From contig NZ_MASU01000004.1 in assembly GCF_003202235.1 (NCBI RefSeq), positions 1 through 38,734 of the forward strand: a stretch of DNA of 38,734 nucleotides. Reading direction: 5' to 3'. The first letter of the stretch is position 1, and every line of letters begins with the position of its first letter. Source of the stretch: Prauserella flavalba. Its GTDB lineage: Bacteria; Actinomycetota; Actinomycetes; Mycobacteriales; Pseudonocardiaceae. Below are positions 19,350 to 36,309 of the stretch, piece after piece. The notes below the pieces were generated by a model. The model had not been told where the DNA came from and did no database searches. It saw only the letters and a program-made list of their open reading frames with translations. Made by a program: the position numbers and the translations under genes.

Positions 19350-19436
19350 CAGTGAAACCCTCATGCAGCGGGTTTCTCCAGGGCGCCGACGGGGCGAACA
19401 TGAGGCGTTGAAGTGGCGACGAGGGTGTTGACCTGC
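19350..19436 (-). promoter_or_regulatory. Composite regulatory element, copy A
   Basis: Read on the minus strand, it has GCAGGTCAAC, then three 11-bp-spaced repeats. The central repeat is CGCCTCATG; the two flanking ones are degenerate. Next come CGCCCTGG (19385-19378) and TTCACTG (19356-19350). All blocks match copies B and C at the same spacing, except for one extra base before TTCACTG. It lies 112 bp upstream of the 19238 start. Confidence 0.7.
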
Positions 19437-19440
19437 AAGT

Positions 19441-19776
19441 TCACATCGTGAACGGGGGATCGTTGTCCCCGTGATAATCGTCGGGGCGGGTCGCCGGATG
19501 GAAGAGCCAAGGCGTGTCACGTGCCTGCAACGCTCGCCAGTCCACTGGCCTGATGTAGTTCGGGTCGCCGACGGGGATGATCAACGTTGCTTCAGGGTCG
19601 TCGCCGAGCCGCTTGTCGTTCGCCCACCTAACTTGTGCAGGCGACAGCTCAGGTGGTCGCGTGTAGACCTGCCGGTCGGCTCTCCAGACCCGCACCTGTG
19701 CGACGGCCAAGAATGCCAGCAGCGCGACCAAGAAAACACCGAGAACGCTGCCAATCACAATCCATACGGCTGCCAT
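19441..19776 (-). CDS. Small single-pass membrane protein
   Basis: 111 residues from ATG 19776. The open frame extends to 20049 but upstream sequence is Arg-rich shadow. The first 27 residues (AVWIVIGSVLGVFLVALLAF) form one transmembrane helix, followed by VWRADRQVYT, which suggests a cytoplasmic tail. The rest is soluble and ends DDYHGDNDPPFTM. No family is recognised. It lies 107 bp after the PadR gene, at the end of the deazaguanine operon. Confidence 0.65.
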   Translation of the reverse strand: MAAVWIVIGSVLGVFLVALLAFLAVAQVRVWRADRQVYTRPPELSPAQVRWANDKRLGDDPEATLIIPVGDPNYIRPVDWRALQARDTPWLFHPATRPDDYHGDNDPPFTM

Positions 19777-19883
19777 CCCGCGTTCAGTTCTCGGCAGGGC
19801 GCGGTCTGTGGACGGAGCCTGTGTCTTGCTGGCGGACCAGCGATCTGGCCAGCCGCCATTCTGGACGGTCGGTGCGCATCGCC

Positions 19884-20231
19884 CTACTTCGTGACTGCCT
19901 CTGTTACGGCGGAACGGAAGATGGGCCGAAGCGCCCAGCCGAGCCACCTGCACGCGAACCCCAGCACGTCGCCGCTTCCGGCCGCCGACCTTCGGGCTGC
20001 GCCGATGCCCCGGTCGGTGATCCGGTAGTAGCGGCGTCGCGGCTGCCACGGGTGGGTGGGATCGCGGTCAGCCCAAGAGGAGCAGACCCACCCGGCGTTC
20101 TCCGAGCGAAGCAGAATCGGGTACGTGGTTCCGGGGAGCAGGCCCGTGCGCTCGTAGATTTCCAAGCCATGCAACGCCTTGTCAGGCTCGGCCGACAACG
20201 CCGTCAGCACGGCCAGCGTGTTCTTCCGCAT
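19884..20231 (-). CDS. PadR family transcriptional regulator
   Basis: 115 residues from ATG 20231, with AGGAGA 7 bases upstream. The longer open frame to 20579 is spurious. The winged-helix PadR core is visible: TLAVLTALSAEPDKALHGLE, then LLPGTTYPILLRSENAGWV (recognition helix and wing), then RRRYYRITDRG (86-ish), the usual PadR wing end. It lacks the long C-terminal dimer helices and so belongs to the short PadR subfamily. It follows the APH gene by 19 bp in the same operon and may control it. Confidence 0.85.
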   Translation of the reverse strand: MRKNTLAVLTALSAEPDKALHGLEIYERTGLLPGTTYPILLRSENAGWVCSSWADRDPTHPWQPRRRYYRITDRGIGAARRSAAGSGDVLGFACRWLGWALRPIFRSAVTEAVTK

Positions 20232-20250
20232 ACGTGCATCTCCTGTTCGA

Positions 20251-21240
20251 TCATCCGCCGTTCGCGAGCAGGGTGCGGGTGCGGCGCCACTGGTGCTCGA
20301 AGGCGGACACCTGGTCGTGGCTGCGTTTCCAGCGCACGGCCAGCCAGCGCAGGGCCACGGTGCGGCGAGCGGCGGCGAACCGGCGGCGGCTCTGATCGTC
20401 GTCGACACCGAGTTCGGGCAGCAGAGCGAGCCACCGGTCGTCGTCGATCGTGCGGGCGCTGGGATGCTCGATGAGTTCGGCTGCATCGTAGGCAGCGTCG
20501 GAGTGACCGGCGAATTCCCAGTCCAGAACGTAGATCGCGCTGATGAAATCGTGCCAGAGCCAGTTGTCGAGGTTGCCATCGCCGTGGGAAAACACCAGCG
20601 GGGCCGGCTCGGCGAGGACGGCCGCGTCGCCGCGGTCGTGCCATGCGGTGAGCAACGCGGTCATGTCGCGGGTGAGGGCCTCGTCGGGGTACTGGCGCAA
20701 TTGCTCAGTCCAGGTCCCGGTGATGCGGCGGACGAAGTCGCTCGCGGCGTCCAGACGGCCCAAGGTGGCGAATGGCCCGAGTGGGACCTGACGGATCTGC
20801 CGGAGGACGGTGACCAGCGCCGGCAGTGCCTTGCTGGGCCTGTCCAGCTTGGTGATCGGCAGTCCTGGCACGAACCGCAAGCCCACGGCGGGCAGCTCAG
20901 GATGTGGATCGTGCCAGAACGCCGCTCCGGCGGCGGTGACGCCGTGCTCGCCGAGGTGTCGCAGCGCGTTCCATTCGCATCGGGCGCGGTCGCGTTTGTC
21001 GGTGCGGTAGAGCTTGAGGCAGGACAAGCCCCGCGAGCTGCTCCAGCGGTAGACACGGTTGTTCCGGCCACCGGTGAGCCGGGTCAGCCCCAGCTCTGGC
21101 AGGTCGGCGTCCAGAGCCTCCGGCCGCGCGCGGTGTAGGGCGCGCAACTCGGCCAGCAGGTCGTTCGGGATGGTGTCGCGGTCCAACGTCGCGTGCTCCG
21201 GGTCGGTGTGGTCGGGCAGCACGGCCCGCCAGGCGGTCAC
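20251..21240 (-). CDS. APH-family phosphotransferase (small-molecule kinase)
   Basis: 329 residues with the aminoglycoside phosphotransferase/choline kinase fold. The N-lobe has LTGGRNNRVYRW and LKLYR (probable ATP-binding lysine at about 77). The catalytic loop is HGDGNLDN (219-226) with Asp221 and Asn226, and the metal-binding motif is LDWEF with Asp240. All key residues are present. The GTG overlaps the stop of the preceding phosphatase gene (GTGA). It could phosphorylate a pathway intermediate or provide self-resistance by modifying the final product; sequence alone does not decide. Confidence 0.88.
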   Translation of the reverse strand: MTAWRAVLPDHTDPEHATLDRDTIPNDLLAELRALHRARPEALDADLPELGLTRLTGGRNNRVYRWSSSRGLSCLKLYRTDKRDRARCEWNALRHLGEHGVTAAGAAFWHDPHPELPAVGLRFVPGLPITKLDRPSKALPALVTVLRQIRQVPLGPFATLGRLDAASDFVRRITGTWTEQLRQYPDEALTRDMTALLTAWHDRGDAAVLAEPAPLVFSHGDGNLDNWLWHDFISAIYVLDWEFAGHSDAAYDAAELIEHPSARTIDDDRWLALLPELGVDDDQSRRRFAAARRTVALRWLAVRWKRSHDQVSAFEHQWRRTRTLLANGG

Positions 21241-22112
21241 GGCGTGCCCGCCGGTCGTGGCCAGTACGGCGTATCGCGGGCGATGTCCATCATCGGCAGC
21301 AGTGTGTCCGCGAGGGCGGGGGTTGTGGCCACGGTGCAGCGGGCGCGGGTGGAGTGCGGGCTGCCGTCAGCGTCGAGGACCAGCGCGCCGGCTTCGCGGG
21401 CGATGATCGCCCCGGAGGCGGTGTCCCAGGTCCGGTTGCCGAACAGGATGCTGGCGTCCAGGGTGCCGTCGGCGACCCACACCAGTTCGAGCGCGGTGGT
21501 GCCAAGGCGACGGACACCTTGTGCCTGAGCGGTCAGGCGCAGGTCCACGGTGACACACAACTGATCGCGAACGGTGGCGTCGGGACCGCTGCCGTAGTCA
21601 CACAGAGCGATCAACGCCTGGTCGAGGCGAGCGGTCGTCGAGACGCTGATCGGGTCTCCGTCGCGGAAGGCGCCGCCGCCGGTGACGGCCCAGTACCGGC
21701 GCCCCAGGAACGGCAGGGCCGTGATGCCGAGGACGGGCTGGTGGTCGTGGACCAGGGCGAGTGCGATCGCGCACAGCGAGCCACCGTGGCTGAAGTTGAT
21801 CGTGCCGTCGATCGGGTCGAGTACCCAGTAGGTGTTCTTGTCGCCGGAGGCACCGAGTTCCTCGCCGATGAAGCCGACGGCGGGATCCCAGCGGCTCAGT
21901 CGGTCTCGGATGAGGCGTTCGACGGCAAGGTCGATGTTGGTGACGACATCGCGGTCGCCTTTGATGTGGATCTGGGTCGGTTGGTGGCTCAGGGTGTGCT
22001 GGACGGCGAGGTCGATGGCGCGTTGCGCCGCGGTGAGGGCGTGATCGAGATCCGGGATCGACATCGAGGAGGTTTCCTTGGAACCGTGAGGAATGTGGTC
22101 GGGCTCGCTCAT
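21237..22112 (-). CDS. Inositol monophosphatase family phosphatase
   Basis: 291 residues, or 275 from the alternative ATG at 22064. It has all metal-binding motifs of the IMPase superfamily: GEE (83-85), DPIDGT (99-104) and WDTASG (229-234). It should remove phosphate from a small phosphorylated metabolite, such as inositol phosphate, histidinol phosphate, PAP or a sugar phosphate. Its stop overlaps the kinase start and its own start is 6 bp from the previous stop, so it is tightly fixed in the operon. An adjacent kinase and phosphatase suggest a protect-and-release scheme, which is inference. Confidence 0.9.
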   Translation of the reverse strand: MSEPDHIPHGSKETSSMSIPDLDHALTAAQRAIDLAVQHTLSHQPTQIHIKGDRDVVTNIDLAVERLIRDRLSRWDPAVGFIGEELGASGDKNTYWVLDPIDGTINFSHGGSLCAIALALVHDHQPVLGITALPFLGRRYWAVTGGGAFRDGDPISVSTTARLDQALIALCDYGSGPDATVRDQLCVTVDLRLTAQAQGVRRLGTTALELVWVADGTLDASILFGNRTWDTASGAIIAREAGALVLDADGSPHSTRARCTVATTPALADTLLPMMDIARDTPYWPRPAGTP

Positions 22113-22118
22113 GGCGAC

Positions 22119-22484
22119 CTATAAGGTCATCAGCGTCGAGACCGATGTCGCGATGCGGTGCCATTCGGCCGCACGTGCCCTCGCCAGTTCGGTTCCGATC
22201 GGGTCCTCTCCGTCGTCAGCGGTGAATGCCCATCGCCGGGCGCGGAAATCGGCGATGATCTCCAATGCGGCTGGCCCCATTGCGGCCACGATTTCGGCTG
22301 CCTGTTCCCGCACCAGCAAGCGGATTCGCTGCGGTTCTTGATATGGCCGCGTGCAGCGCGCGGTAGTTCGGGTGATGGGCAGGGGTTGTGGCACGAGAAA
22401 CCCGGCCAGTTCGGTCGACGGTCGCGCGCCGTCAAGGAGGTGGTCGTGGCCAACGCGCGAGCTGTGGCTGTCGAGGATGGTCAT
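22119..22484 (-). CDS. Hypothetical protein
   Basis: 121 residues from ATG 22484, overlapping the stop of the Nudix-fold gene (ATGA). The C-terminal half (about 50-120) is helical with RIRLLVREQAAEIVAAMGP and TELARARAAEWHRIA. No family is recognised. The upstream extension of the frame to 22589 is shadow of the previous gene. Four-base coupling on one side and a 6-bp gap on the other support it as a real operon member. Confidence 0.7.
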   Translation of the reverse strand: MTILDSHSSRVGHDHLLDGARPSTELAGFLVPQPLPITRTTARCTRPYQEPQRIRLLVREQAAEIVAAMGPAALEIIADFRARRWAFTADDGEDPIGTELARARAAEWHRIATSVSTLMTL

Positions 22485-22918
22485 GGTGTCCACGCCTGCC
22501 ACGGGTTCTCGGCCCACAGAGTGCCGGCGATCAGCGCGTCGCGGACTGCTGTGGGTTCGAGGGTGGACAGTTCGCGTTCCCCAGCCCATCGGTGCGGACG
22601 GGGCGCCGACTCGTCGAGGCGGTCGCGCTCGGTGAGCGTGACGTCGAACAGGAAGACCAGCTCCGAGGTGGCCGGGTGTCCTGGCTGGGTGGTGTCGCGT
22701 TCGACGACGGCGCAGAAGTCCACTGCGGCGGCGGTCGCGCGGAGCTGGTCGCGCAATGCTCGGCGGAGTGCCTGTTCGACAGGTTCTCCCGTGCGGACCG
22801 GGCCGCCGGGCAGGGTGGTGTGGTCCGGGTGCTCGACCAGCAGAAGGCGTTCATCCCGTCCAATCAGGGCGTAGACGACGACGTGGGGTGTCGCGATGGG
22901 ACTGCCGGGTTCGCTCAT
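22481..22918 (-). CDS. Nudix-fold protein with a degenerate Nudix box
   Basis: 145 residues. The fold is clear: PHVVVYALIGRDERLLLVEH, then TTLPGGPVRTGEP, then a C-terminal FLFDVTL. The canonical box G-x5-E-x7-R-E-U-x-E-E is changed to RALRDQ at 53-58. The first catalytic Glu is Ala54, and the metal-binding pair is Asp57-Gln58. Ordinary pyrophosphohydrolase activity is therefore doubtful. It may bind a nucleotide as a sensor or act by altered chemistry. It opens a tight block of four overlapping or nearly touching genes. The start is ATG 22918, 102 bp after the QueE stop. Confidence 0.8.
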   Translation of the reverse strand: MSEPGSPIATPHVVVYALIGRDERLLLVEHPDHTTLPGGPVRTGEPVEQALRRALRDQLRATAAAVDFCAVVERDTTQPGHPATSELVFLFDVTLTERDRLDESAPRPHRWAGERELSTLEPTAVRDALIAGTLWAENPWQAWTP

Positions 22919-23020: not shown

Positions 23021-23743
23021 TCAGCGGCCACGGTCGTTCTCCCACAACAAGGTGTGCAACCGGGTCGACAGGTTCCATCCGTGCGCCAGCACCGGGTCGG
23101 CCAGGACTCGCATCCTGGCCAGGACGGTGGTGCTGTCCGTGCCTTCGGGCATCACCCACACCGGGTGAAGGTCGTAGGTGCTGACCAGTTCCTGGATCTC
23201 GTCGAGGTCATCGACGTCTTGAGCGACGAACTTCCAGCTCGCTTTCCCGCTGGCCGTCAGGTCCTTCAAGACGGTGGGCCGGATGCGTTGATGGCGTCGC
23301 AGCCGCGAGTGCGCGAGCTTCGGTGAGACGTTGAACCGAGTGACCGCCGAGGCGATCAAGGCTGTGGGCGCGATGGTGCCGGACGTCTCGATCTCGATGT
23401 CGGTGGCGAGTTGGCGCTCGCGGATCGCGTTCACCAGTCGCTCGACGACGCGCGGCTGCAGCAGTGGTTCACCGCCGGTTATCACGACCAGCCCGGCCGG
23501 GCCGCCGGACAGCCACGACAGGACGTCCTCGATCGAGACGATTCGCTGTTCGGCGGCGAGGTCGTAGCGACGCTGATCATGGGTTTGGGCGCTATCGCAC
23601 CACACGCAGGAGATGTGGCAGCCGAACAGCCGGATGAAGCGCGCGTACCGGCCGGTGCTCGGCCCCTCGCCCTGAAAGGTCGGGCCGAACATCTCGTTGA
23701 TCACGAGATCCCGTTCCGCGTCGGGCACCACCGGTAGCTTCAT
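23021..23743 (-). CDS. queE: 7-carboxy-7-deazaguanine synthase (radical SAM)
   Basis: 240 residues from ATG 23743, which overlaps the QueD stop (ATGA). QueE converts 6-carboxy-tetrahydropterin to 7-carboxy-7-deazaguanine using a [4Fe-4S] cluster and SAM. The substrate segment MFGPTFQGEGPSTGR (18-32) is typical of QueE. The radical SAM cluster motif C-x3-C-x2-C is Cys42, Cys46 and Cys49 (GCHISCVWC). The SAM motif is VVITGGEPLLQ. The length is right for the family. The partner QueD is adjacent. No QueC, QueF or FolE is seen in this window. Confidence 0.93.
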   Translation of the reverse strand: MKLPVVPDAERDLVINEMFGPTFQGEGPSTGRYARFIRLFGCHISCVWCDSAQTHDQRRYDLAAEQRIVSIEDVLSWLSGGPAGLVVITGGEPLLQPRVVERLVNAIRERQLATDIEIETSGTIAPTALIASAVTRFNVSPKLAHSRLRRHQRIRPTVLKDLTASGKASWKFVAQDVDDLDEIQELVSTYDLHPVWVMPEGTDSTTVLARMRVLADPVLAHGWNLSTRLHTLLWENDRGR

Positions 23744-24303
23744 GACCCGTCCAGCGGCCCGGTGGTCGCGCTGTTGAGGTCGGTCTCCCGCACGAACACC
23801 CGGCCCACGCGGGCACCGGCAGCGCACGGCAACCCGGCGAGCACGACCTGGCTCATGCGCCGCACCAGCACGGCCACGGCCTCAACGGTCGGCCACATCA
23901 GGTCGGCTGCCAGCGCCTCCGCCTCTCCAGCGAGGCAAGCATGGCCGGTTCCGAAGCGGAACACCTTGCATTCCGCTGCCGCGAGAGGCTCCACGAGGGC
24001 GTCTTGGACGCCGAGCATGGTCCCGTGATCGAGGTGGGTGTCGATCCAGTGCCGGATACCGGCTTTCAAGGCACTGAACTCCACAACCGTGGCCTCGTCG
24101 CTCAGTCTCGGGGCGATCACGGAGACGGCTACCCGCCAGGAATGTCCGTGCAGGCTGGTGCACTTGCCACCCAGGTGCGGCAGGCGGTGCGCGGTTTCGA
24201 AGGAGTGCTCGACCGTGATCTGGTGGGCTGTCGGAACGCGGTCGTCCATCACGAGGTCTGCGGGGTTGGTGGTGGCGTGACCGGTCGTCGCCGTGCCGAG
24301 CAT
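23740..24303 (-). CDS. queD: 6-carboxy-5,6,7,8-tetrahydropterin synthase
   Basis: QueD converts dihydroneopterin triphosphate to 6-carboxy-tetrahydropterin, the step before QueE. From ATG 24249, the zinc ligands are His21, His34 and His36 and the catalytic cysteine is Cys30, in HRLPHLGGKCTSLHGHSW. The Asp-His pair is at 74-75 in LDHGTM. I gave ATG 24303 as the start because GAGAGGAA lies 11 bases upstream; starting at 24249 removes 18 poorly conserved residues and is equally possible. Sequence after about residue 140 is longer than in minimal QueD. It is the first gene under element B. Confidence 0.92.
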   Translation of the reverse strand: MLGTATTGHATTNPADLVMDDRVPTAHQITVEHSFETAHRLPHLGGKCTSLHGHSWRVAVSVIAPRLSDEATVVEFSALKAGIRHWIDTHLDHGTMLGVQDALVEPLAAAECKVFRFGTGHACLAGEAEALAADLMWPTVEAVAVLVRRMSQVVLAGLPCAAGARVGRVFVRETDLNSATTGPLDGS

Positions 24304-24379: not shown

Positions 24380-24427
24380 CTGCGGCGGAAGGCGTCGGGG
24401 GGAAGGGGAGTGCACCTTCCGCCGCAG
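24380..24427 (-). promoter_or_regulatory. Inverted repeat in the queD upstream region
   Basis: A perfect 13-bp inverted repeat: CTGCGGCGGAAGG (24380-24392) and its complement (24415-24427), with a 22-base loop. It begins 8 bases after the conserved TTGACT of element B. Element C has an inverted repeat at the same 8-base distance. It could be a repressor site or a leader hairpin. Confidence 0.6.
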
Positions 24428-24434
24428 TCGGGTC

Positions 24435-24520
24435 CAGTCAACGGCCGGTAATCACGGTGATCCAGAGCGTGGGTGCGGCGTCGATGAGGCGCGAATGAGG
24501 CGTTGTTTTGGTTGACCTGC
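24435..24520 (-). promoter_or_regulatory. Composite regulatory element, copy B (queD operon)
   Basis: Minus-strand order: GCAGGTCAAC, two 11-bp-spaced repeats CGCCTCATT and CGCCTCATC, CGCTCTGG, 20 bases, TTGACTG. It aligns without gaps to copy C, with about 56 of 86 bases identical by hand count. It ends 132 bp before ATG 24303. No clear -10 box is seen, so an activator-dependent promoter is inferred. Confidence 0.75.
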
Positions 24521-24559
24521 GGAAACGGCGGCACCCGAGAGGGGAACACGGCCCGACGT

Positions 24560-25001: not shown

Positions 25002-27935
25002 CTATTCCGACGGTCTTTCCGTGTTCGCGGTGTCCCAGCCACCGGTCGCGTCAGCCAACTCCCGGCGGAGCTTGAGGACCGTCTCGCGGTCGCCCGTCGC
25101 CCCCGGTCCGGCGTCGGTGAACAAGTCCAGTGCGGTGCCGTAGCAGCGGTCGGCGTCCGCGATGTTGTCGAGCTGGGCGTGTGCCTGGCCCATGACCGTG
25201 TAGGCGTGCCCCCGGTAGCGGGGCGACCCACAGGACGCCAGGACGTTCTCGATGCGACGCAGGGCGAACAGCGCGGCGTCCGGTTGTCGGGCGTTGACGT
25301 GGACTTCAGCGAGGTAGGTGATCACCCGTGCGTGAGCCGCCTCGTCGCCGAGCGCTTCCATCCGCTCGGCTGCCTCACGGAGATGCCAGACAGCCTGCGG
25401 GAAGTCGGCGATCTCCGGGTGGGCGTACGCCTGGCCGATCCTGCGATGGCGCAGCGCGATGCTGCGCCGGTCGCCACGCTGTTCGTCGAGCAACAGTGCG
25501 CTGCCGAGATCTTCCAGAGCAGCGCGGGGTTTCCCGGCGGCGGTGAAGGCTCGAGCGCGGGTGGACAACGCCGCTGCCTGCACCCAGCTGTCGCCGAATG
25601 TGATTGCCCGCTCGATCGCGGCCGCGCAGGTCGTGATCGCCGCGTCGTGGTGGGCGCGGTTGGTCTCGCCAAAACCAAGGCGGGTGAGGAAAACCGCTTC
25701 CAGAACGTGCTGGCAACGCTGCGCGGCGAGGATACCGAGTTCCTGTGTGTTGACGAGATCATCGGCGAAGTAACTGGGCCGCAACGGGTTCCAGACAACT
25801 TCGGCGAGCTGGAACACCAGGCCGTCCCAGCCTTCCTGGTCAGCAAGGTACTGAGAGGCAAGGACATTCGCCCGCTCGATGCCGAACCAGCTCAGGGCGT
25901 GTTCGGCATCGGCGAAGGGCTCGGTGTCCAGATGTTCATACACCGGGCTGAACCGCCGCGAACGCGGGTTGATCGCGATGTCGGCGGCGGCCGTGCGTCG
26001 CAGGTACCACTCGATCATGCGGCGTAGCGCGGCCCGGCGTGCGCTCGCTCCGTCATGCCGGTGGGCCAGTGACTGGGCGTGCTCGCGCGGCAGGTCATGC
26101 TGGCGGTACCGGGCGGGGGCTATGGGGGTGACCAGATGGGCGTCGACCAACCTGGCCAGCCCTCGCTCGACGTCGGTGACAGGCAGGTCGAGAGCCGCCG
26201 CCAACGGATCGGCGGTGAACTCGGCACCGGGGTGCACGGCCAGCAGCCGGTACAGCCGTGCGGTATCGGCATCGAGGTCGTCATAGCTCATGTCGAAGAT
26301 TCCTCCCACGGATGCCTCGTCCACGTGCAAGGCCAGGGTGGCGCCGTGGTCGGTGTTGAGGTGGGTGATCAGATCGGTCGGGCAGCGATGTGGGTTTGCG
26401 GCCAGGTACGCACCGGCGATTGCCACAGCGAGGGGGTGTCCGTGGCAGCGCGTGGCCAACGCGCGTAAGGCGCTCGTCTCGGCGTCCGACGGCCGACCGA
26501 GCAGGGACGCCAGCAGGGCGGCACCGGCATCCGGTGTGAGGTAGTCCAGGTCCACCGGATGAAATCCAGCGAGAAGCAGCCCACGTGCCTGGCGGCGGCT
26601 GGTCACGAGGATCGTGCTGTCCGGCGAAGCTGGAATCAGCGGGCGAACCTGCTCCACCGAAATGGCATTGTCGACCAGGACCAGGAGTGCCTTCTCGGCG
26701 GTGATGCTGCGGTAGAGCGCAGTCAGCTCGAGAGGATCAGTCGGGAGCGTGTCGGGCGCGACTCCGAGGGCACGAAGCCAACCGGCGAGCACATGGTGTG
26801 GCCGGCCTGGCGGCTGATCTCGCAAGGTGCTCAGATCCGTGTACAGCTCGCCGTCCGGGTGCCGTTCCCGCTGGCTGGCCAGCCAGCGGACCGCCAGTTC
26901 AGTCTTCCCAATGCCGCCCATCCCGGTCAGCAACGCCCTGGTCGGCGCGGTCCGGGCGGCGAGTTCATCAAGGAGCACCAGCTCACGACTGCGGTTTGTC
27001 CAGATCGGATGCGGTGGCGGGAATTGGCGCGGCGTCGGCCCAACCCGAGGCCGGGCTGATTGCCCCATGATGATCGTGCGTGCGGTCACGGTGTGGGCTT
27101 GCAGGACGGATCCGTTCACCGCGCCGTCGACGTCGTTGCGGTGTCCTGGCTCGATCACTGGCAGGCTCCGAATCCGAAGGCTGCCGAGCACACCAGGGCC
27201 TGTGGGGCCGGGCCGAAGCCAAGGCGCGAGCTGAAGTTCCCACGGATGCTGCGGTGTGCTGTCGGCTAGCGCCGCCTGAGCCGCAGGCAGGTCTCCGTTT
27301 ACGCAGTGGGCCACGATCGTGGCTTGTCGGCCCTCCATGAGGTGCAGGCCAATCCCGCGGTGGGCGTGGGCGTGGGCGACCGCGTCGTCCCACCGGCCGG
27401 CAAGTGCCAAGGCTCGGATGCCGTCGCCGATCAGGTGCAGCCACACCCATTCGTGCAGCTTGTAGTGTTCGTCACGGCTACCGGCGACATCGGCCAGGGG
27501 CAAGGTGTGTCCGTCAACGACGAGGTCGGTGTTGGACCTGACGGCCTGGAACATCGCGGTGAGCAGTCGGAGCGCCTGGTCGCCGTCGTGGGCGCGGAAC
27601 TGGAGCCGGGCGAGGTTGAGGACGGGTTCGAGCATGTGGCGGGCGTGCAGCACGGTGAGCGGCCGGTCGGCGGCGCGGTAGAGGTCGATGTGCTGCCAGC
27701 ACAGGTCGCGGGCCAGGTCCGGCAGGCCACAGTCGCTGGCGATCAACGCCGCCTTGTTCAGGGCGTGGGTGCCTTCGGCCAACCGGTCGGCGCCGTCCTG
27801 GCCGGCGGCGTGGACGATGTCGGCGATCTCCTGGACTCGCTCGGGCAAGGACGGGCAGGCGGGCCGGGGACGACCCAGCAGCGGGAAGCGGCGGATCACA
27901 GCGGCCAGCGTTGGCGAGTTCGGAGTGGAGTTCAT
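25002..27935 (-). CDS. STAND NTPase (NB-ARC type) with TPR-like repeats
   Basis: 977 residues from ATG 27935, preceded at 6 bases by GGAG and 2 bases after the upstream stop; a TTG at 27941 would add two residues. It has three parts. The N-terminal helical region (about 30-245) has repeated L/A-rich helices. A short beta segment with NGSVLQAHTVTARTIIMG lies near 275-290. The NB-ARC ATPase has Walker A GMGGIGKT (338-345) and Walker B LLVLVDNA. The C-terminal third (about 700-960) is TPR-like. Such proteins are signal-responsive switches, either SARP/AfsR-like regulators or effectors. There is no DNA-binding domain, so the partner is unknown. Confidence 0.85.
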   Translation of the reverse strand: MNSTPNSPTLAAVIRRFPLLGRPRPACPSLPERVQEIADIVHAAGQDGADRLAEGTHALNKAALIASDCGLPDLARDLCWQHIDLYRAADRPLTVLHARHMLEPVLNLARLQFRAHDGDQALRLLTAMFQAVRSNTDLVVDGHTLPLADVAGSRDEHYKLHEWVWLHLIGDGIRALALAGRWDDAVAHAHAHRGIGLHLMEGRQATIVAHCVNGDLPAAQAALADSTPQHPWELQLAPWLRPGPTGPGVLGSLRIRSLPVIEPGHRNDVDGAVNGSVLQAHTVTARTIIMGQSARPRVGPTPRQFPPPHPIWTNRSRELVLLDELAARTAPTRALLTGMGGIGKTELAVRWLASQRERHPDGELYTDLSTLRDQPPGRPHHVLAGWLRALGVAPDTLPTDPLELTALYRSITAEKALLVLVDNAISVEQVRPLIPASPDSTILVTSRRQARGLLLAGFHPVDLDYLTPDAGAALLASLLGRPSDAETSALRALATRCHGHPLAVAIAGAYLAANPHRCPTDLITHLNTDHGATLALHVDEASVGGIFDMSYDDLDADTARLYRLLAVHPGAEFTADPLAAALDLPVTDVERGLARLVDAHLVTPIAPARYRQHDLPREHAQSLAHRHDGASARRAALRRMIEWYLRRTAAADIAINPRSRRFSPVYEHLDTEPFADAEHALSWFGIERANVLASQYLADQEGWDGLVFQLAEVVWNPLRPSYFADDLVNTQELGILAAQRCQHVLEAVFLTRLGFGETNRAHHDAAITTCAAAIERAITFGDSWVQAAALSTRARAFTAAGKPRAALEDLGSALLLDEQRGDRRSIALRHRRIGQAYAHPEIADFPQAVWHLREAAERMEALGDEAAHARVITYLAEVHVNARQPDAALFALRRIENVLASCGSPRYRGHAYTVMGQAHAQLDNIADADRCYGTALDLFTDAGPGATGDRETVLKLRRELADATGGWDTANTERPSE

Positions 27936-27937
27936 GG

Positions 27938-28918: not shown

Positions 28919-30111
28919 TCATCCCATCCCGTGTGAGGCGGCGTGCTGTGCCGCGCGGTCTCGAGCGCCAGGTCCACTCCGATGCGTCCGGTAAGCAGCC
29001 CGGTCGCGGCAGGCGGATGCCCGTCCTCGTCGCCTCGTGATTGCGCGTGCTGGGCGAGCCGATCGGCCAGTACCGGAACGCGGTGGGCGAGGGCGGGGCC
29101 AAGGGCGTCGCGGGACGCGCGGTAAGCGGTTTGGAACACCCCGGCGATGCCGTGGCACAGGCCCGGTTCGGTGATCCGGTCGAGTTGGGTGTCGGCCAGG
29201 CTCGCGGCCAGGGCGTCCTCGGCAGCGTGGCGGCGTCGCGGTTCGTGGGTGGCCAGGGCGGCGAGTTGCTGGGCGCGGGCGATGCCGACCGTCCCGTAGC
29301 ACCAGGAGGCTCGGCCGGGACGAGCGTGGGCGGGGCGGCCTGTGCGTAGCTCCTCGCGGGTGATCCATTGCGGCCACCACGGTCCGTCCGGTCCGTCCTG
29401 CCGCCACCGGTCGAACCACTCCGTGAGCACGGCGATCGCCTCGGGCTGGCCGTCGACCACGCGCCCGCGCAGGGTGGCCAGGGCGAGGAAGGACAGCAGC
29501 CCGGCCGCGCCGTGGGCCATGCCGAAGTTCGCGTGCCCGCCGGGGGTCGGCAGGATCTGGTCCGGGTCGTGCGCCACCCACCAACCCGGCAGGTCGGTGC
29601 CGTCCTCGTGGCGCGGCCGGGTGGCCAGGGTGACCACGTATCGCAGAATCCCGGCCAGCTCGTCGCTGTCGGGGTTGTGGTGCAGCAGCAGCGCGCCGAT
29701 GCCGGTGAGCCCGTAGAACAGGTCGTACTCGGCGAAGGTGGCGGGCTGGCCGCGGTCGACTCGGGTGCCGACGGCATCCAAACGCTTGCGGGTCAGGCGC
29801 AGCACGTGCTCGTCCATCGTCTGGCTGGCCGCGCGGTAGCGGGGGTGGCGGTCGGCGGCGGCGTGCAACAGGAACGCCACGGCGGGCGCCCCGTAGTACA
29901 GGCCGGCGTGGTCGGCTGCGTCGACCGGCCCGGCCACCACCCGGCGGATGTGGGTTTGCGCGGTGTCCCACCTGCCGGAGCCGGTCCATGCGCGTTCGAC
30001 GTGCAGCAGCGCGGCCCCGACCGCGCCTCGGGCTAGGGACTGGCTGGCCACCTCGTCGAGGGTCAAGGTCACTGTGCCGGTGTCCGGGCTCGGGTCTGCG
30101 CCGGTGGTCAT
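28900..30111 (-). CDS. lanC: Lanthionine synthetase C-like cyclase
   Basis: 403 residues from ATG 30111; the longer open frame to 30435 is shadow. LanC catalyses addition of cysteine thiols to dehydrated Ser/Thr, forming lanthionine rings. The zinc site is Cys271 (WCYGTVG), Cys319 and His320 (LCHGIAG). The catalytic-type His200 is in MAHGAAG. The alpha-toroid pattern of G-x-x-G repeats is visible: YYGAPAVAF, FYGLTGIGALLL, GLLTGRIGV. The ATG overlaps the LanB stop (ATGA), so the two were translationally coupled before LanB was interrupted. Confidence 0.94.
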   Translation of the reverse strand: MTTGADPSPDTGTVTLTLDEVASQSLARGAVGAALLHVERAWTGSGRWDTAQTHIRRVVAGPVDAADHAGLYYGAPAVAFLLHAAADRHPRYRAASQTMDEHVLRLTRKRLDAVGTRVDRGQPATFAEYDLFYGLTGIGALLLHHNPDSDELAGILRYVVTLATRPRHEDGTDLPGWWVAHDPDQILPTPGGHANFGMAHGAAGLLSFLALATLRGRVVDGQPEAIAVLTEWFDRWRQDGPDGPWWPQWITREELRTGRPAHARPGRASWCYGTVGIARAQQLAALATHEPRRRHAAEDALAASLADTQLDRITEPGLCHGIAGVFQTAYRASRDALGPALAHRVPVLADRLAQHAQSRGDEDGHPPAATGLLTGRIGVDLALETARHSTPPHTGWDECLLIT

Positions 30112-31874
30112 CGGGCACCGGCCGGGGCGAGGCAGCGCAGCGCGACGGCGCGGGCGAGTCGTCCGGTTTCCTTCTCGAACGTCGGATCGATGCCGACGGC
30201 GCGGATGTGGTGCTCGTGCAGCAGCGTGCGCAGCACCGCGCCGGGCTCTCGCCCCTGTTGGACAAGGGCATCGTGGTAGGCGCGCAGCGCGGTGTCGCGG
30301 GCACTCCAAGCGGCGGCAACCGCCTCGCCACCCGGAAGTGCATGGACCGCGCGGTACTGCTGGGCGGGGTCGGCCACAGCGAGTGCGTGGTCGCGCAGCG
30401 CCCGGTCCAGCGGACCGTGCTCTTGGCGCAGGCATCCCAGCAACGCCCGGTACCCGGCCGGCGGATCGGGAGCGAAGGAGGCGGCCAGGTGCGCCATCGA
30501 CGCGGCGGCCAGGGCCTGCGCGGGAACCTCGGACGCCTGTGCCGCCGCGAGCTGCGCGACGGCGGCCGTGGTGTCCGTGGCGAACACCTGCTCGGCAGCC
30601 GTGAGCGCGGGGCCGTCGCCGTAGCGAGCGGGATGCTGCGGCGTTGGGGCCAGGGTGAGCTGGCCAGGAAGCCCACGAGAGTCCAGGTCAGCCGCGAATG
30701 TGGCCAGGCGGGCGGCAACGGCTCCGTAATGCTGCGGGCTGGCCAGCCGCAGGAACACGGCAAGGTGTTGATCGGCCTCGGGCAGGATCATGTCGCGGTG
30801 CCGCCGCACCCACCACGACTGGACCGGGGCATCCGGGTCACGCGGGTCGTGGAGTTCGGCGACGAACCGAGGCAGGTGCGCGGTGAGGATCTCGTCGAAC
30901 CGGGCGGGGTTGCCCACCACTTGCGCGTGGACCACGGCGGAGCCGCCAGGCTGGAGGGCGGCACCGGGTGCGGCGGTGGCGGGCAGCGGCCGTGCGGGCG
31001 GGGTGATCGCGGTCATCGGGATCAGCAGCTCCGCTGGTCGCCCAATCCAGCCCTGCCTGTCTGGCGGGCCGTCCTCGTGTAGTTCCACTCGGCCGGCTCG
31101 CTCCAGACGAGCATGGAGCAGGGCGCGGTCGAGTTCGTGGTCGAGATCCGACGGCAGGCGCAGCTCCCCGTGAACGAGCACAACTCGTGCCGGCACCTGC
31201 CACCGCTGCCGCCATGACCGCAACGGCTCCTGCCCGTCGTGGGTCTCCGGCCGGTCCTCGACGTCGGTGCCGGAGAGAATCCAGCGGGCGGCAGACAGCA
31301 CCGTGCGGCGGTAGCGGATGCGCGGCACGTAGGGCAGGACGCGGGCGGCGCCGAGATCGAAGCCGCGGAACACCGCGCTGCGGGCGTCGGCGACCTCGGC
31401 GAGGAATCGGGCCAGCGGCGGGCTCTGCACGGCGGTGTCCAGGGCGTGCGGAATCCGCGGGATCACCCGTCGACCGGTGGAGAGCTGCACCAGGTACATC
31501 TGCTCGGCGTCGGCCGTGACCGCCAGGTCGTCCACCCCGATGACGGCGAGGTCCGGGTGCGCGGGATCGGGATGTTCCGACAGCGGTAGGACGTCTCCGA
31601 GCAGTGGCGGCACCCGCACCACGTTCTCGTTGTGGGGCCGGCGCGGCGGAAAGGACAACTGGACCGCCACCGTGCCCGGCGCGGCCTGGTCTGTCGGAGG
31701 CTGTGCTGGTCCTGCGGCGTAGGTCGCGGCCAGTCGAGCACGGTCGGCTCGGTCAAGCAGGTAGGCGAATCGTCCGGCCATGCTGGTCTGCGCGTGCGGC
31801 GCGGCGGTGACCCGCAGGGCGAACTCGCCGCGGTCGATCGCTGCGGTCGACGCGGCGTACACCTCGACGCCTAG
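30108..31874 (-). pseudogene. lanB: Lantibiotic dehydratase LanB, C-terminal fragment (IS-interrupted)
   Basis: 588 codons downstream of the IS insertion. In the intact gene they followed residue 458 directly (ELGVEVYAAS across the junction). The first part completes the glutamylation domain. The last 270 residues form the SpaB_C elimination domain: ARFDEILTAHLPRFV, then WWVRRHRD, then PARYGDGPALTAAEQVF, the usual Y-x-P-x-x-x-RYGG/AE-x-x-F-like signature. Reading frame enters from IS sequence without a good start, so translation may begin at an internal GTG or ATG or not at all. LanC is coupled to its stop. Confidence 0.85.
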
Positions 31875-32850
31875 ACGAGTAATGCGTATCTCGGTTAGTG
31901 GTCGTAGGCGGTCAGTGATCGGGTGATGGGTTGGCCGGTGGCGCGGTTGTGCCAGATGGCGGCGGTGAGGGCCAGGAGGCGTTGGGCGACGCGGGTTCCG
32001 ACGCCTTCGATGGTGCGTCCGCCGTGCTGTTCGAGGTCGAGTTGGCCTTTGAGGGTGTCGTTGACTGACTCGATGAGCTGGCGGATGGACTTGAGCAGCG
32101 GCTCGCCGGGATGGGGCCGGCGGTTGCGGTAGGACGGTCGGATCAGCCGGACCCCGCGCTCGGTGAGGTAGTGGTCGAGTTCGCGGGAGACGTAGCCCTT
32201 GTCGGCGATGATCAGCAGGCCGGGGCGGTCGGTGAGCAGGTGGGGTTCGTGGTCGCAGATCGCCATGAGTACCTGCCGCTCGTCGATCTTCGGGTCCGCC
32301 AGCGCCCAGGCCACCGGGAGTCCGGCAGGGGTGCAGACCAGATGCAGCCGCAGTCCCCAGAACCAGCGGGAGTGTGAGCGGCAGAAGCCGTACTTGGCCC
32401 AGCCGGCCAGCTCTGAGCGCTTGACCGTCGGTCGGGACCGGCCGCACTCCACCGGGGTGGAGTCGACGATCCAGGTGGTGTCGGTCCACAGGTCGGTATC
32501 GGCCGCCAGCCAGCGCATCACGTGCTTGATCAGTGGCAGCGCAGCGCGCAGGCGACGGTTGTAGCCGGACTGGCCGGGCAGGTAGCGGAACGCGCCGGGC
32601 ATCCGGGCGGGCAGGAACCGCAGCCAGCGGGCCTCGGAGGTGAACCCCAGCAACGCCTGGGCGACGGCCAGCGTGACCAGCTCAGCGTCGGTCAGCTTCG
32701 GCGGTCTGCCCATCCGCCGCCTGCCCGCGAGATGGTCGTCGATCTTGACGTAGAGTGCGGTGAGAAGGGTGTTCAGGTCGGTCGTCACAAACTGATCTTG
32801 GACACCCTTCACCTCACTCCGGGCATCACCCCGACTTACGCATTACTCGT
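31875..32850 (-). mobile_element. IS982-family-like insertion sequence within lanB
   Basis: 976 bp. The ends are inverted repeats of about 20 bp: ACGAGTAATGCGTA is identical at both ends, then 2 mismatches and TCGG. It is flanked by the 4-bp direct repeat CTAG (31871-31874 and 32851-32854). The transposase lies in the same orientation as the host operon. Deletion of the element with one CTAG restores an open lanB frame. Confidence 0.92.
31895..32788 (-). CDS. IS982 family transposase
   Basis: 297 residues from GTG 32788; another GTG at 32812 adds eight. The N-terminal helical region has TDLNTLLTALYVKIDDHL and the long motif KLTDAELVTLAVAQALLGF. The DDE catalytic domain has DSTPVECGRS (first Asp), IIADKGYVSREL (second Asp) and LIESVNDTLKGQLDLE (Glu). 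It ends RSLTAYDH. The length and ends fit a complete, probably active, element. Confidence 0.92.
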   Translation of the reverse strand: MTTDLNTLLTALYVKIDDHLAGRRRMGRPPKLTDAELVTLAVAQALLGFTSEARWLRFLPARMPGAFRYLPGQSGYNRRLRAALPLIKHVMRWLAADTDLWTDTTWIVDSTPVECGRSRPTVKRSELAGWAKYGFCRSHSRWFWGLRLHLVCTPAGLPVAWALADPKIDERQVLMAICDHEPHLLTDRPGLLIIADKGYVSRELDHYLTERGVRLIRPSYRNRRPHPGEPLLKSIRQLIESVNDTLKGQLDLEQHGGRTIEGVGTRVAQRLLALTAAIWHNRATGQPITRSLTAYDH

Positions 32851-34228
32851 CTAGTTCGATCCGCTGGGGCGCGACGGCGTCGGCGTGCTCCCCGACGGTC
32901 AGGGCCTCCACGTCAGCGTCGGTCAGCTCGATCTCCCGCGACCCCGTCAGGGTGGCCTGCTGAATCAACGCCAAGAGGGCGGCGTCGCGGTCGGTCAGCA
33001 CCCGCCAGGCGGGCCGGGCGCGTGGTGCACCAAGGTATCCAGTGGGGTATCCGAGGCCAGAGTCGGCGAGCAGGTCCCGCACCGGCACCAGCGCGCCGGG
33101 ACCGTAGCGGGCGAGGAACCGGGCGTGGTAGTCAAGCCACGCGGCCGACCCGAAGGGTTGCGTCGTGGTCGCCAGCAGCACGGTGGCGGCACGCGCGGCC
33201 TCGTCGAGCACCCGCTCGGGGAGGGCGATCGTCGCGTCGACGCGCACGTCGGCGGCCAGCGCAGGGCCGACTCCGGGAACCAGGGCGCTCATCCGGGTGG
33301 CGACCGCCGCCCGGATGTCCCTCGCCTGGTCAGGGTCGATCGTGTGGTTGTGCCGGGCCAGATCGGCGCTGATCGCGTCGAGGTCATGCAGGGCGGCGGC
33401 GATGTCGTCGAGACTGTCCGCGCCGGCCGCACGCAAGGCATCGATCAGGTGGGTCAACGCGTCGACGTTGGTCATCGGAGGCCGCAGGTTCGTGATCAGC
33501 ACACCAGCGTCGACCAGACCGTGCAGCAGTTCGTGGATCTTGTCGGGGGACGCGGAGGGAAACTCGGCGGCCATCCGGTCGGCCAGCGCGTCGAAACGGA
33601 TCGGCGAATCGGCTGCGTTCAACACGAACTGCACAGGACGGGACAGCCGCACCGAAGACTCCCGCAGTGGCCCTGGAGTGGAGGCGCCGACCTCGGCCCG
33701 TGTGTGCACGATGACGCGCCCATCGCGCACGATCCGCGCGTCGTCCACCGACACCATCAGGCGTGGCCGCAGGTCGAGACGCCGTTCGAGCCGGTCGATC
33801 AGCGTGGTGAGCCATTCGCCGTCCACCCGCGCCACGACCCGGTGACCGCTGCGCACGTCGGCCATCGCGCGTCCCACACCGACGGCACCGACGCCAGCGA
33901 ACAGGCCGAACGGCGTGGCTCGCCGTTGCCAGCGCAGCATGTAGGAGGCCACAGAGAGGACGGCCCGGCGTAACTCCTTCGCCGTAGGCCCGGTGGTGCC
34001 GTTGCTCTGGATCTGGTCGAGGCGTGCGCCGAGGACAGGGCTGGCGAGGGCCACTGCGTCCCGTACCTCCGGGCGTGCCCACACTTTCGCCAGCCACGCG
34101 CGGCCTTCCTGCTCGACCGCGGCCGGATCGGCAGGATTCAGGTACGGCGGCGGGTCGAGATCGCCGGGATCGGTGGTGACGCGGGCCAGGACGAGGCCGG
34201 CGTGCTGGTAGCGCGGGGACACGGTCAT
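32843..34228 (-). pseudogene. lanB: Lantibiotic dehydratase LanB, N-terminal fragment (IS-interrupted)
   Basis: LanB uses glutamyl-tRNA to glutamylate and then dehydrate Ser/Thr of the precursor. This fragment keeps 458 native residues before the insertion and then adds three residues from IS sequence (LDE) and a stop. It starts MTVSPRYQHAG, with GAGGAGA 10 bases before the ATG. The dehydratase hallmark RRATPFGLFAGV is at about 100-115. It lacks half of the glutamylation domain and the entire elimination domain. The reconstructed gene would be 1046 residues, a normal LanB length. The cluster is therefore disrupted in this strain unless the element excises. Confidence 0.92.
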
Positions 34229-34272
34229 GGCGATTCGCTCTCCTCACCGGTCACGGTCAGTAGCAGCCGACT

Positions 34273-34310: not shown

Positions 34311-34320
34311 GTGGGGTGGA

Positions 34321-34512
34321 TCAGAACGGGTTGTTCGAGCCTGTGCTGCACGCGCTGGTGCTACAGGTGCTGCCGCACCCGTCGCTCGTGTCGCACGACA
34401 TGGTCACGAGCCTCGTGGTGGACTCCACCACGCGCATATCCAGCTCGAACTCCGCGTCCTCGACTGCGCCTTCCGGGGACTCCGTGCGCGGCGTGGCCAG
34501 TGCTGCCGTCAT
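34321..34512 (-). CDS. lanA: FxLD family lanthipeptide precursor
   Basis: 63 residues, with AGGAG 8-9 bases before ATG 34512. The leader (about 1-30) has the FxLD motif FELD (22-25) followed by MRVVES. The core runs from about 31 and has four Cys (40, 46, 50, 55) and many Ser/Thr: TMSCDTSDGCGS, TCSTSAC, STGSNNPF. It can form up to four (methyl)lanthionine rings. Asp41 and Asp44 are candidate isoaspartate sites; Asp44 is followed by Gly, the most succinimide-prone context. The C terminus is Phe, not Cys, so an AviCys end is not expected. It lies between the methyltransferase and lanB genes. Confidence 0.92.
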   Translation of the reverse strand: MTAALATPRTESPEGAVEDAEFELDMRVVESTTRLVTMSCDTSDGCGSTCSTSACSTGSNNPF

Positions 34513-34524
34513 TCGGTTCGCTCC

Positions 34525-35802
34525 TCACCTCTCGGGGTTGTGCAGGGCACCCTGGTCATCGGCGGCGTCGGCCGTCGGTGACCAGGAGATCGTGGCCAGG
34601 CCGTGCGTCTTGACCAGCACGGCCGTGCTGTTGCCGAACTCGGGACGACGGGAGCCTTCGGGCCAATAGGCGAAGACGGGCTCCCGGTCACGACCCTGGC
34701 GGTCCCATGCCTGGATCTGCTCGACCATTGCGGCGGCGGCGTCTTCGCCATGCACGCCGTAGGCACGCGCGCCGAACTCGACTCCGCCGCCTTCGGGAAC
34801 GGGACGGACGGCCAGGTAGGCGAACGAGCCGCCGCGCACGACTCCGAAGGGGAACCAGCCCTTGCGTTCGGCGGCCATGTCGGTGCCCTCGTCCACGGCC
34901 AGCTTGCAGAAGCCGGGCAGGAACGCGGCGAACCACAGGTGTAGGTCGGCGAAGGACACGCCGTGCTTGATCGTGACGCCGGACCAGACCTCGGTGCGTT
35001 CGGTCGCCAGCACCCCGTCCAGCAGGCTCATGTCCTGCGGCACCTCACCCTCGAAGCGAAGCTTGACGTGGTGACCGTTGCGGTCGGGTAGGAGGAAGAC
35101 GCGCTCGTCATAGGCGCCGGCGCCTTGCATCGGGACGAACCCGGCGACCTCGGCCGAGGTGCTCACCAGGTGGTCGCCCTGGCGACGGAAGGCGATTGCG
35201 CGGGTAATCCCGTTCATCCGCAACGGAACGACGATCCTGCCGTTCGCGGACAGGTGCTCCAGCCAGGCCGGTGCGAGGTCCCAGGCTCCGACCGTCACCA
35301 GGATCGCGTCGAACGGCTCGTCCAGCCCCGGCAACGGGTTTTCCGCGTCGGCCTGCACCACGGTGACCCGGTTGCCGTATCCGGTTGCGTCCAGCAGCTC
35401 GCGGGCGCGGTCGGTCACCTCTGGGTCGATGTCGACGCTGACCACCCGCCCCTCCGGACCGACGACCTCGGCCAGCAGGGCTGCGTTGTACCCACCCGAC
35501 CCGATCTCCAGCACGCTCATGCCCTCGGCGAGCTCGGCCTGCTCAATCATCCGGGCCTGGATGTACGCCGCACTGGTGGACGAAATGATCACGCCGTCCG
35601 GCCCGCGCTTGATCGCCACCGAGTTGTCGACGCTGTACGTGACGTCCAGCGGTGTGCCCTCGGCGACGAACAGATGCCGTGGCACAGTGCGGAAGGCTCG
35701 CTCCACCAACGGCGAGGTGATCATTTTCTTCTCGAGAAGCGTCTCCACCAGGCCATCGCGGAACTCTGCGGCGTTGGCATCGTCATGTCGGAGTGTGTTC
35801 AC
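34525..35802 (-). CDS. Methyltransferase of the FxLD system (PCMT-like, lanthipeptide O-methyltransferase)
   Basis: 425 residues. It resembles protein L-isoaspartate O-methyltransferase: VERAFRTVPRHLFV (33-46), then SSTSAAYIQARMIE, the SAM motif VLEIGSGG (97-104) and VVSVDID. Relatives in class I lanthipeptide clusters methylate an Asp of the modified core, which then forms succinimide and isoaspartate. The C-terminal 190 residues are the accessory domain of these enzymes (LLDGVLATERTEVW to FAYWPEGSR). GTG 35802 has a purine-rich GAAAGAGA upstream. The gene lies immediately before the precursor. Confidence 0.9.
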   Translation of the reverse strand: MNTLRHDDANAAEFRDGLVETLLEKKMITSPLVERAFRTVPRHLFVAEGTPLDVTYSVDNSVAIKRGPDGVIISSTSAAYIQARMIEQAELAEGMSVLEIGSGGYNAALLAEVVGPEGRVVSVDIDPEVTDRARELLDATGYGNRVTVVQADAENPLPGLDEPFDAILVTVGAWDLAPAWLEHLSANGRIVVPLRMNGITRAIAFRRQGDHLVSTSAEVAGFVPMQGAGAYDERVFLLPDRNGHHVKLRFEGEVPQDMSLLDGVLATERTEVWSGVTIKHGVSFADLHLWFAAFLPGFCKLAVDEGTDMAAERKGWFPFGVVRGGSFAYLAVRPVPEGGGVEFGARAYGVHGEDAAAAMVEQIQAWDRQGRDREPVFAYWPEGSRRPEFGNSTAVLVKTHGLATISWSPTADAADDQGALHNPER

Positions 35803-35826
35803 CAGTTCTCTTTCAGATGGATTGAT

Positions 35827-36082
35827 TCAAATTGCGTGCCCAAGCAGGCCCTTTTCGGAAATCATGATGCGGACACGCTGCTCGTCGATCATCCAGCCGT
35901 TGGGCAGGAACGAGTCCACGGTCTGCTTCGGACAGACCTTGATGCGCGCGCCAACGCCGCCACGGCACAAGCGGTGCCACCCGCGCACCTGCTCGGCCGT
36001 CGTCTCCGCGAGCGACGACAGGCTCCTCCGTGAGCCGAGTACGCAGCTCGTCGACGACAGAGCGCGCGACCACATCAGTCAC
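35827..36082 (-). pseudogene. Small first gene of the lanthipeptide operon, apparent frameshift
   Basis: GTG 36082 has a strong ribosome site, AGAAGGAA, 8 bases upstream, and opens with protein-like MTDVVARSVVDELRTRLTEE. After about 26 codons this frame turns low-quality. The next frame instead reads AEQVRGWHRLC, then KQTVDSFLPNGWMIDEQRVR, to a stop at 35827, with normal high-GC third positions. A +1 shift near 36000-36010 would join them into about 84 residues. Alternatively an 82-residue protein starts at ATG 36075 in the second frame, with a 15-base spacing to the ribosome site. No family recognised. Confidence 0.4.
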
Positions 36083-36180
36083 AAGAGACGTTCCTTCTAG
36101 CAGCGGTTTCAGCCTTAGCGGTCCCGGAGCGTACTCACGCAGTTACTCGATGCCACGCAGCGACAACCAGGCGAGCAGCG

Positions 36181-36216
36181 CTGTGCCGAGAAGGCGAGGG
36201 GCGCTCCTCGGCACAG
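36181..36216 (-). promoter_or_regulatory. Inverted repeat in the lanthipeptide operon upstream region
   Basis: A perfect 10-bp inverted repeat CTGTGCCGAG / CTCGGCACAG with a 16-base loop. It starts 8 bases after TTGACT of element C, the same distance as the inverted repeat after element B. Confidence 0.6.
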
Positions 36217-36223
36217 GCTTCAT

Positions 36224-36309
36224 CAGTCAACTGGGGGTGGACGTCGGCGTCCAGCGCGCCCACGGGGCGGCGATGAGGCGTGCATGAGGCGTCGATGGTC
36301 CTGGCCTGC
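36224..36309 (-). promoter_or_regulatory. Composite regulatory element, copy C (lanthipeptide operon)
   Basis: Minus-strand order: GCAGGCCAGG, repeats CGCCTCATG and CGCCTCATC at 11-bp spacing (36283-36291 and 36272-36280), CGCGCTGG (36258-36251), 20 bases, TTGACTG (36230-36224). It ends 141 bp before GTG 36082 and lies within the gap shared with the divergent XRE regulator. A further half-site-like TTGAGGCG is at 36325. Confidence 0.75.

Follow-up and report, generated by a model that had tools for sequence, protein, structure and literature searches.

A conserved 86-bp direct-repeat element is a candidate operator for one XRE-TPR subfamily in Prauserella flavalba and other Pseudonocardiaceae

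A 38,734-nucleotide stretch of the Prauserella flavalba genome (contig NZ_MASU01000004.1, positions 1 to 38,734; hereafter the window) carries three copies of an 86–87 bp element built on 11-bp direct repeats, located upstream of an FxLD lanthipeptide operon, a QueD/QueE operon, and a third unit that includes a class I methyltransferase gene. It is nearly certain that the element is genuine and under selection as a DNA site. Based on sequence comparisons across the family, it probably functions as double-stranded DNA, serving one subfamily of XRE-TPR regulators as a composite operator or an upstream activating site; a member of this subfamily is encoded divergently from the lanthipeptide operon.

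The three copies were found by direct reading where a first-pass annotation of the window had placed them (36224, 24435, and 19350, the last two being listed from one base earlier in Table 1), all on the minus strand. Ungapped identity between copies 36224 and 24435 is 56 of 86 positions, exactly as estimated previously, with 51/86 for 36224 vs 19350 and 47/86 for 24435 vs 19350. Random window positions give a mean of 22.7–25.0 (sd 4.2–4.4), and the top unrelated place 43/86. A core pattern of 20 fixed bases (CGCCTCATNNNCGCCN7CGCNCTGGA) matches the window three times without mismatch, and four times with up to three mismatches (one of these overlapping a true copy in a shifted register), vs an average of 0.03 matches in 100 shuffles. 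In the minus-strand direction, every copy starts with GCAGG(T/C)CA, displays four units in a single 11-bp register at offsets 18, 29, 40, and 51, with cores CGCCTCAT, CGCCTCAT, CGCC-N4, and CGCNCTGG (the first unit of copy 19350 reading CGCCACTT), and ends with GTTGACTG or GTTTCACTG. The extra 11-bp unit formerly attributed to one copy, lettered A, is absent, and the step from the second CGCCTCAT to CGCNCTGG is 14 bases instead of 13, while the reported 20–21 bases from CTGG to TT(G/C)ACTG proved correct (19 from CTGG to the preceding GTT). Distances to the likely first start codons, as chosen by us (GTG 36082, ATG 24303, and GTG 19238), are about 142, 131, and 111 bp.

This architecture extends to relatives. 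On 95 collected stretches we located 131 copies, of which 8 belong to the P. flavalba genome itself, leaving out the two weakest rows of the family search (28.1 bits, G002 and G059; G and L numbers denote our genomes and stretches). From the 95 anchorable copies of at least 40 bits, 50 non-redundant ones (less than 85% alike; L171 was dropped for want of an anchor) yielded a consensus that reads, towards the operon, GC(A/T)GGTCA, about 10 bp, three CGCC(T/C)C(A/G)T units (the third less strict) at 11-bp start-to-start spacing, a fourth unit CGC(T/N)CTGG, about 19 bp, and a closing box of the form GTTGACTG, GTTTAG(C/T)TG, or GTTTCACTG. Across these 50 copies, the CGC of each unit is 97–99% conserved in the 11-bp register, with little variation in the distance to either outer box. 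It is a relative's copy (L163) that has five units and is exactly 11 bp longer, as expected for a protein-binding array.

In the whole 8.09-Mb genome, the core pattern with up to three mismatches gave 15 matches, vs 8 for the same pattern read backwards, so that loose matches are mostly chance; inspection of flanks left seven full copies, namely the three in the window and four elsewhere (C12:122926, C12:164455, C12:179150, and C31:4544). With a sequence-only profile these seven score 59–69 bits and the next-best place 29 bits. The element is not locus-specific, four of its seven strong copies lying elsewhere. Each of these four is found 83–179 bp from its own divergent XRE-TPR gene. Since the seven own-genome copies went into the element profile, and five XRE proteins encoded beside own-genome copies into the XRE profile, evidence from this genome is circular, and it is the relatives that provide independent support. 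All counts below are lower bounds, as only the best candidates per genome were scored (14 for the element in the family, 11 for the element in the class, 5 for XRE, and 6 for the methyltransferase), and genes in relatives were called by a simple GC-based open reading frame (ORF) picker instead of taken from annotation. At an E-value of 1e-5, the element was detected in at least 54 of 297 Pseudonocardiaceae genomes (own genome included), from 22 of 46 genera; class-wide, at least 2 of 394 genomes matched at 1e-6, i.e. the own genome and one more of Pseudonocardiaceae.

Conservation in other genera was seen for each of the three window sites: corresponding copies there precede QueD/QueE genes, FxLD methyltransferase genes, and the 115-aa genes of the third unit. 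In alignments of four chosen other-genus copies per site, mean element identity was 0.79, 0.77, and 0.70 for the three sites, vs 0.60, 0.49, and 0.40 for upstream flanks and 0.65, 0.70, and 0.45 for downstream flanks. For the QueD site these were four of the six other genomes with a QueD-type copy, all of them without a close XRE gene (G018, G062, G129, G140, G220, and G310), and for the third unit three copies preceding a 115-aa gene plus L174, which has the same preceding neighbours and other genes after the element. The suggestion that the three window units form one regulon thus gains support from these corresponding copies, with the qualification that the element is not private to this locus.

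A divergent XRE ORF lies within 1.5 kb of 74 of the 112 copies that reach 35 bits, and a co-directional one near 2 others. Conversely, for 46 of the 57 XRE matches of at least 380 bits in the 297 family genomes, an element with an E-value up to 1e-5 lies no more than 600 bp upstream, and in all 46 cases the two are divergent. All 33 genomes with an XRE of at least 380 bits carry an element of at least 35 bits, 15 genomes have the element at this threshold without such an XRE, and 249 have neither at these cut-offs (Fisher p = 1.5e-32). These counts retain XRE matches containing an internal stop, and two matches reported in two pieces had their 358-bit score replaced by 508, the second piece being seen in the own genome and assumed for the near-identical relative in G177. 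The share of XRE genes beside an element falls with score, from 8/15 (320–380 bits) to 4/15 (290–320), 3/13 (250–290), and 1/29 (200–250), which ties the element to one XRE subfamily. The first-pass annotation had named as candidate regulator a divergent XRE-TPR gene beside the copy it lettered C. Such a neighbour does exist and adjoins copy 36224, so its copy C must be this one. From sequence, an XRE-TPR protein is the best candidate regulator; copies 24435 and 19350, which have no such gene beside them, may be served by this one or by another, as the four further copies have their own XRE-TPR paralogues (26–33% identical to the window protein, each with an N-terminal XRE HTH, i.e. helix-turn-helix, domain). 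The window order of flavoprotein-type gene, XRE, element, and FxLD methyltransferase was found again in G284 (L170).

Genes following the element also recur. Within 4.3 kb and on the same strand, 91 of the 112 copies are followed by a gene of five recurring groups, i.e. QueC (25 copies), FxLD lanthipeptide (18 copies), QueD/QueE, NUDIX/inositol-monophosphatase-like, and the 115-aa gene of the third window unit, and 21 by none of them. Element-led operons lie in one orientation within about 40–70 kb in three genomes (G018, G062, and G140), and in L150 the 115-aa gene and QueD/QueE form one same-strand gene run behind the element. Carrying the element is, however, no general feature of FxLD operons: the FxLD methyltransferase occurs in at least 138 of the 297 family genomes, much more widely than the element, and of the 48 genomes in which a copy reaches 35 bits, 17 have an FxLD gene within 4.3 kb after it.

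By analogy, the best reading is that the element would act like a SARP box, read by XRE-TPR regulators rather than by a SARP. SARP boxes such as that of PimR in Streptomyces are 11-bp direct repeats of two or three units at a biosynthetic-cluster promoter (PMC5930380); the present element differs in unit sequence, in having four units with flanking boxes at near-fixed distance, and in its linkage to XRE-TPR genes. Its units, one helical turn apart on one DNA face, could seat HTH subunits side by side, and oligomerisation and ligand sensing would fall to the TPR half. The bound protein may then recruit RNA polymerase to the operon promoter. Transcription would probably start a few nucleotides beyond the last box, at a place where a hairpin is present in many copies. 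In divergent pairs the bound protein would also control its own XRE gene, and copies without a neighbouring XRE (24435 and 19350) would be served in trans. Of activation and repression we modestly prefer the former, as the probable start is downstream of the array, whose units keep helical register, and as the hairpin in many copies fits a start after the last box.

An AlphaFold2 model of the window XRE (pLDDT 77, 14 sequences) shows an HTH followed by helical repeats, where a Pfam scan of the protein gave no TPR match over cut-off. Foldseek with this model retrieved many TPR proteins with weak scores, including Rap, PlcR, NprR, and AimR, and the modelled protein looks like an HTH-TPR sensor of the RRNPP kind. 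It shares with these TPR peptide sensors, some of which have an HTH, an N-terminal HTH_3 and a modelled helical-repeat C terminus, but query TM-scores to them are 0.31–0.46 (E 3e-3 to 1e-2), other TPR proteins rank higher, and the element consists of direct repeats, not a palindrome.

Several observations weigh against this assignment. XRE proteins are mostly known from palindromic operators, so that direct repeats would be unusual. No divergent XRE ORF lies within 1.5 kb of 38 of the 112 copies, and 11 of the 57 strong XRE matches are without an element within 600 bp. Among nine collected loci with the relatives closest to the window XRE itself (51–78% identity), two (L203 and L206) have an element nearby; in Crossiella (L198) the relative is a second XRE, located after the one divergent to an FxLD element. 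Named relatives of this XRE come from Crossiella, Saccharomonospora, Sciscionella, Actinoalloteichus, Saccharothrix, Actinokineospora, and Amycolatopsis, all genera of Pseudonocardiaceae. A sigma-70 type promoter scan around copy 36224 found none, and 31 of the 50 non-redundant copies, including window copy 19349, lack a following hairpin with a fold z-score below -2. Finally, element divergence correlates with divergence of the HTH (r = 0.57) and of the TPR part (0.55–0.59; 23 pairs), with partial correlations of 0.21 (HTH) and 0.13 (TPR) for the whole element and 0.14 and 0.21 for the repeats. HTH-specific coevolution with the element was therefore not borne out: as the TPR part correlates as well as the HTH, co-inheritance explains the correlation.

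Two other proteins-on-DNA scenarios deserve consideration. The element could be the box of an unlinked SARP-type activator, a winged-helix protein binding 11-bp direct repeats, with the XRE-TPR genes as downstream targets or co-regulators. The element shares the 11-bp periodicity of SARP operators, which have 7-mers with 4-nt spacers and are thought to be bound by monomers on one face (PMC5930380), and close to one own-genome copy is encoded an NB-ARC protein of 819 aa that matches the part of AfsR after residue 265. This match, however, does not include the DNA-binding start of AfsR, the PimR heptamer given in the same paper (CGGCAAG) is unlike CGCCTCAT, the co-inherited regulator is the XRE, and neither BTAD nor Trans_reg_C SARP DNA-binding domains were found in the scanned window proteins and 20 cluster representatives (other neighbours were left unscanned, and no genome-wide SARP search was made). 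We regard this scenario as improbable. We also consider it unlikely that XRE-TPR proteins bind another intergenic site and leave the element to a different conserved factor or an alternative sigma promoter. An example of such a site is CACCCGNTCGG. If one mismatch is tolerated, 21 of the 30 non-redundant copies that adjoin an XRE have this motif within the 70 nt preceding the element, where mononucleotide shuffles predict 2.2, and in 18 of the 30 it lies 36–38 nt away. It likewise occurs before 9 of 20 copies without a close XRE (1.0 expected on the same basis; 5/20 at 36–38 nt). Yet all 20 of these have the element, by construction, and 9 the motif, and the motif is missing from window copies 36224 and 19349.

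Explanations other than a protein operator fared worse. A riboswitch-like leader RNA might account for the 65 nt after the element, which fold with z below -2 in 19 of 50 copies vs 4 of 50 control stretches. In the window, inverted repeats follow two copies (Table 1; none of note was found after copy 19349). But the conserved core folds less than its shuffles (mean z +0.6, with 1 of 50 copies below -2), and an Rfam scan gave no family at gathering score at the element; a structured RNA element was accordingly rejected, and we hold this option to be very improbable. More remote still is the notion that the copies are remnants of a mobile element, an iteron origin, or a recombination site lying upstream by chance. 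The patchy, clustered distribution could point that way, as could one of the following genes, whose reverse-transcriptase-like product is related to proteins of group II introns, against which the same divergent partner gene and the same downstream genes recur, and no transposase, recombinase, or Rep family was found among the 20 scanned cluster representatives.

An XRE-TPR operator thus remains the favoured interpretation, and supplies a defined candidate operator, a named regulator subfamily, and a predicted target set for one regulon. The operons responding to one circuit can be predicted from it, and it would provide a way to turn on the lanthipeptide and deazaguanine-type pathways jointly. 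It also suggests that direct repeats of the SARP kind can be used by XRE-TPR proteins. No description of such an element or XRE-TPR regulon was found in the titles, abstract openings, and passages of the literature searched, and a word search of PMC13329287 returned none of six terms.

Whether the linked pathways share a product is more speculative. It is conceivable, if doubtful, that the lanthipeptide and QueC/QueD/QueE pathways form one XRE-TPR-switched programme yielding a nucleobase- or nucleoside-modified (e.g. deazaguanylated) lanthipeptide. This idea derives from the shared element, from the co-occurrence of FxLD and QueD modules in 6 of 48 element genomes (five with QueC, G000, G018, G024, G062, and G140, and G310 without), and from the lack of a tRNA-guanine transglycosylase match (PF01702) in the window's genome, where 14 of 14 control genomes were positive. 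Without a match to this enzyme, the Que enzymes of this strain probably serve a product other than tRNA. Use of QueC-type genes outside tRNA modification is described for QueC-family conjugation systems (type IV CBASS Cap9 and qatABCD; PMC11996544); the QueC-type genes here differ in sharing the element with lanthipeptide genes.

Table 1. Features of the window and their coordinates
Feature	Position	Strand	Remarks
Element copy before FxLD lanthipeptide operon	36224..36309	-	Adjoins divergent XRE-TPR gene; 68.1 bits
Element copy before QueD/QueE operon	24434..24520	-	Without adjoining XRE gene; 69.0 bits
Element copy before third unit (121-aa ORF and methyltransferase)	19349..19436	-	Without adjoining XRE gene; 64.0 bits
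Inverted repeat, possible 5' leader hairpin	36181..36216	-	13-bp stem, 7 nt after element, z -2.6
Inverted repeat, possible 5' leader hairpin	24380..24427	-	15-bp stem, 6 nt after element, z -6.7
XRE-TPR regulator, candidate element binder	36422..37711	+	N-terminal HTH_3/HTH_31; helical-repeat C terminus by model
FxLD-system methyltransferase	34525..35802	-	TIGR04364, 494 bits (cut-off 320)
Likely lanthipeptide precursor	34321..34500	-	Recognised by eye from an FELD (FxLD) motif and a core rich in Cys, Ser, and Thr; start codon provisional
LanB dehydratase, two pieces	30108..34228	-	32843-34228 and about 30108-31880; flank IS982-type transposase gene
LanC-like cyclase	28900..30435	-	PF05147
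NB-ARC/TPR protein	25002..27941	-	Homologue preceded by XRE and own element in five relatives
QueD-like (PTPS) protein, 187 aa	23740..24303	-	First gene after copy 24434
QueE-like radical SAM protein	23021..23827	-	
QueD-unit genes	20251..22918	-	NUDIX 22481-22918; inositol-monophosphatase-like 21237-22112; APH-like kinase 20251-21240
Third unit	18006..19238	-	First gene 18873-19238 (no Pfam match); class I methyltransferase 18006-18779

Judged from sequence, the first operon qualifies as an FxLD class I lanthipeptide locus (TIGR04363/TIGR04364), with a methyltransferase over cut-off, LanB (interrupted), LanC, and a likely FELD precursor recognised by eye; it differs from this type of locus in that many FxLD genomes of the family are without the element. 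The likely precursor was taken as a 63-aa ORF, which falls into one cluster with a 66-aa ORF of L172, and was assigned without a TIGR04363 match. An IS982-family transposase gene (31895-32812, in a gap of about 31881-32842) splits LanB into pieces matching Lant_dehydr_N 1-403 and 401-649, and the lanthipeptide pathway of this strain is thus probably interrupted. The relatives in which an XRE and its own element precede the NB-ARC/TPR homologue are G018, G062, G129, G140, and G310.

Variants of these arrangements were seen among the collected stretches. A shortened element (model columns 6-63, 29–30 bits), i.e. the units without the outer boxes, lies about 650 bp before a gene of about 620–820 aa (NB-ARC cluster in L016, L128, and L155) at L016 3224-3281 and at 4501-4558 in each of L128, L155, and L197. 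In L017 (11439-12755), L019 (7188-8381), and L198 (10001-11236), the element-linked XRE-TPR gene has a second such gene behind it, in the same orientation.

The QueC operons of relatives also encode a reverse-transcriptase-like protein, with FADN where YADD is expected (by eye; L018 3850-4824, L141 6911-7885, and L119 9817-10806), whose gene adjoins one for an FGE-sulfatase/EgtB-like protein. Because of this pairing, a diversity-generating retroelement was considered and rejected: scanning of 12 loci returned repeats over threshold in three (L129, L163, and L189), none of them A-biased, and blastn of the 3' ends of six FGE genes returned short weak matches alone. In a PADLOC scan of eight proteins, a DUF6884 protein of a QueC operon (L018 2829-3446) gave a weak match (E 2e-4) to DpdC of 7-deazaguanine DNA modification. 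Beside the element-linked QueC, reverse-transcriptase, and FGE operon of L189, an array that looks CRISPR-like by eye, with spacers and a direct repeat of roughly 30 bp, spans about 6563-7250. In the window itself, complete 23S and 5S rRNA genes lie at the edge (85-3404).

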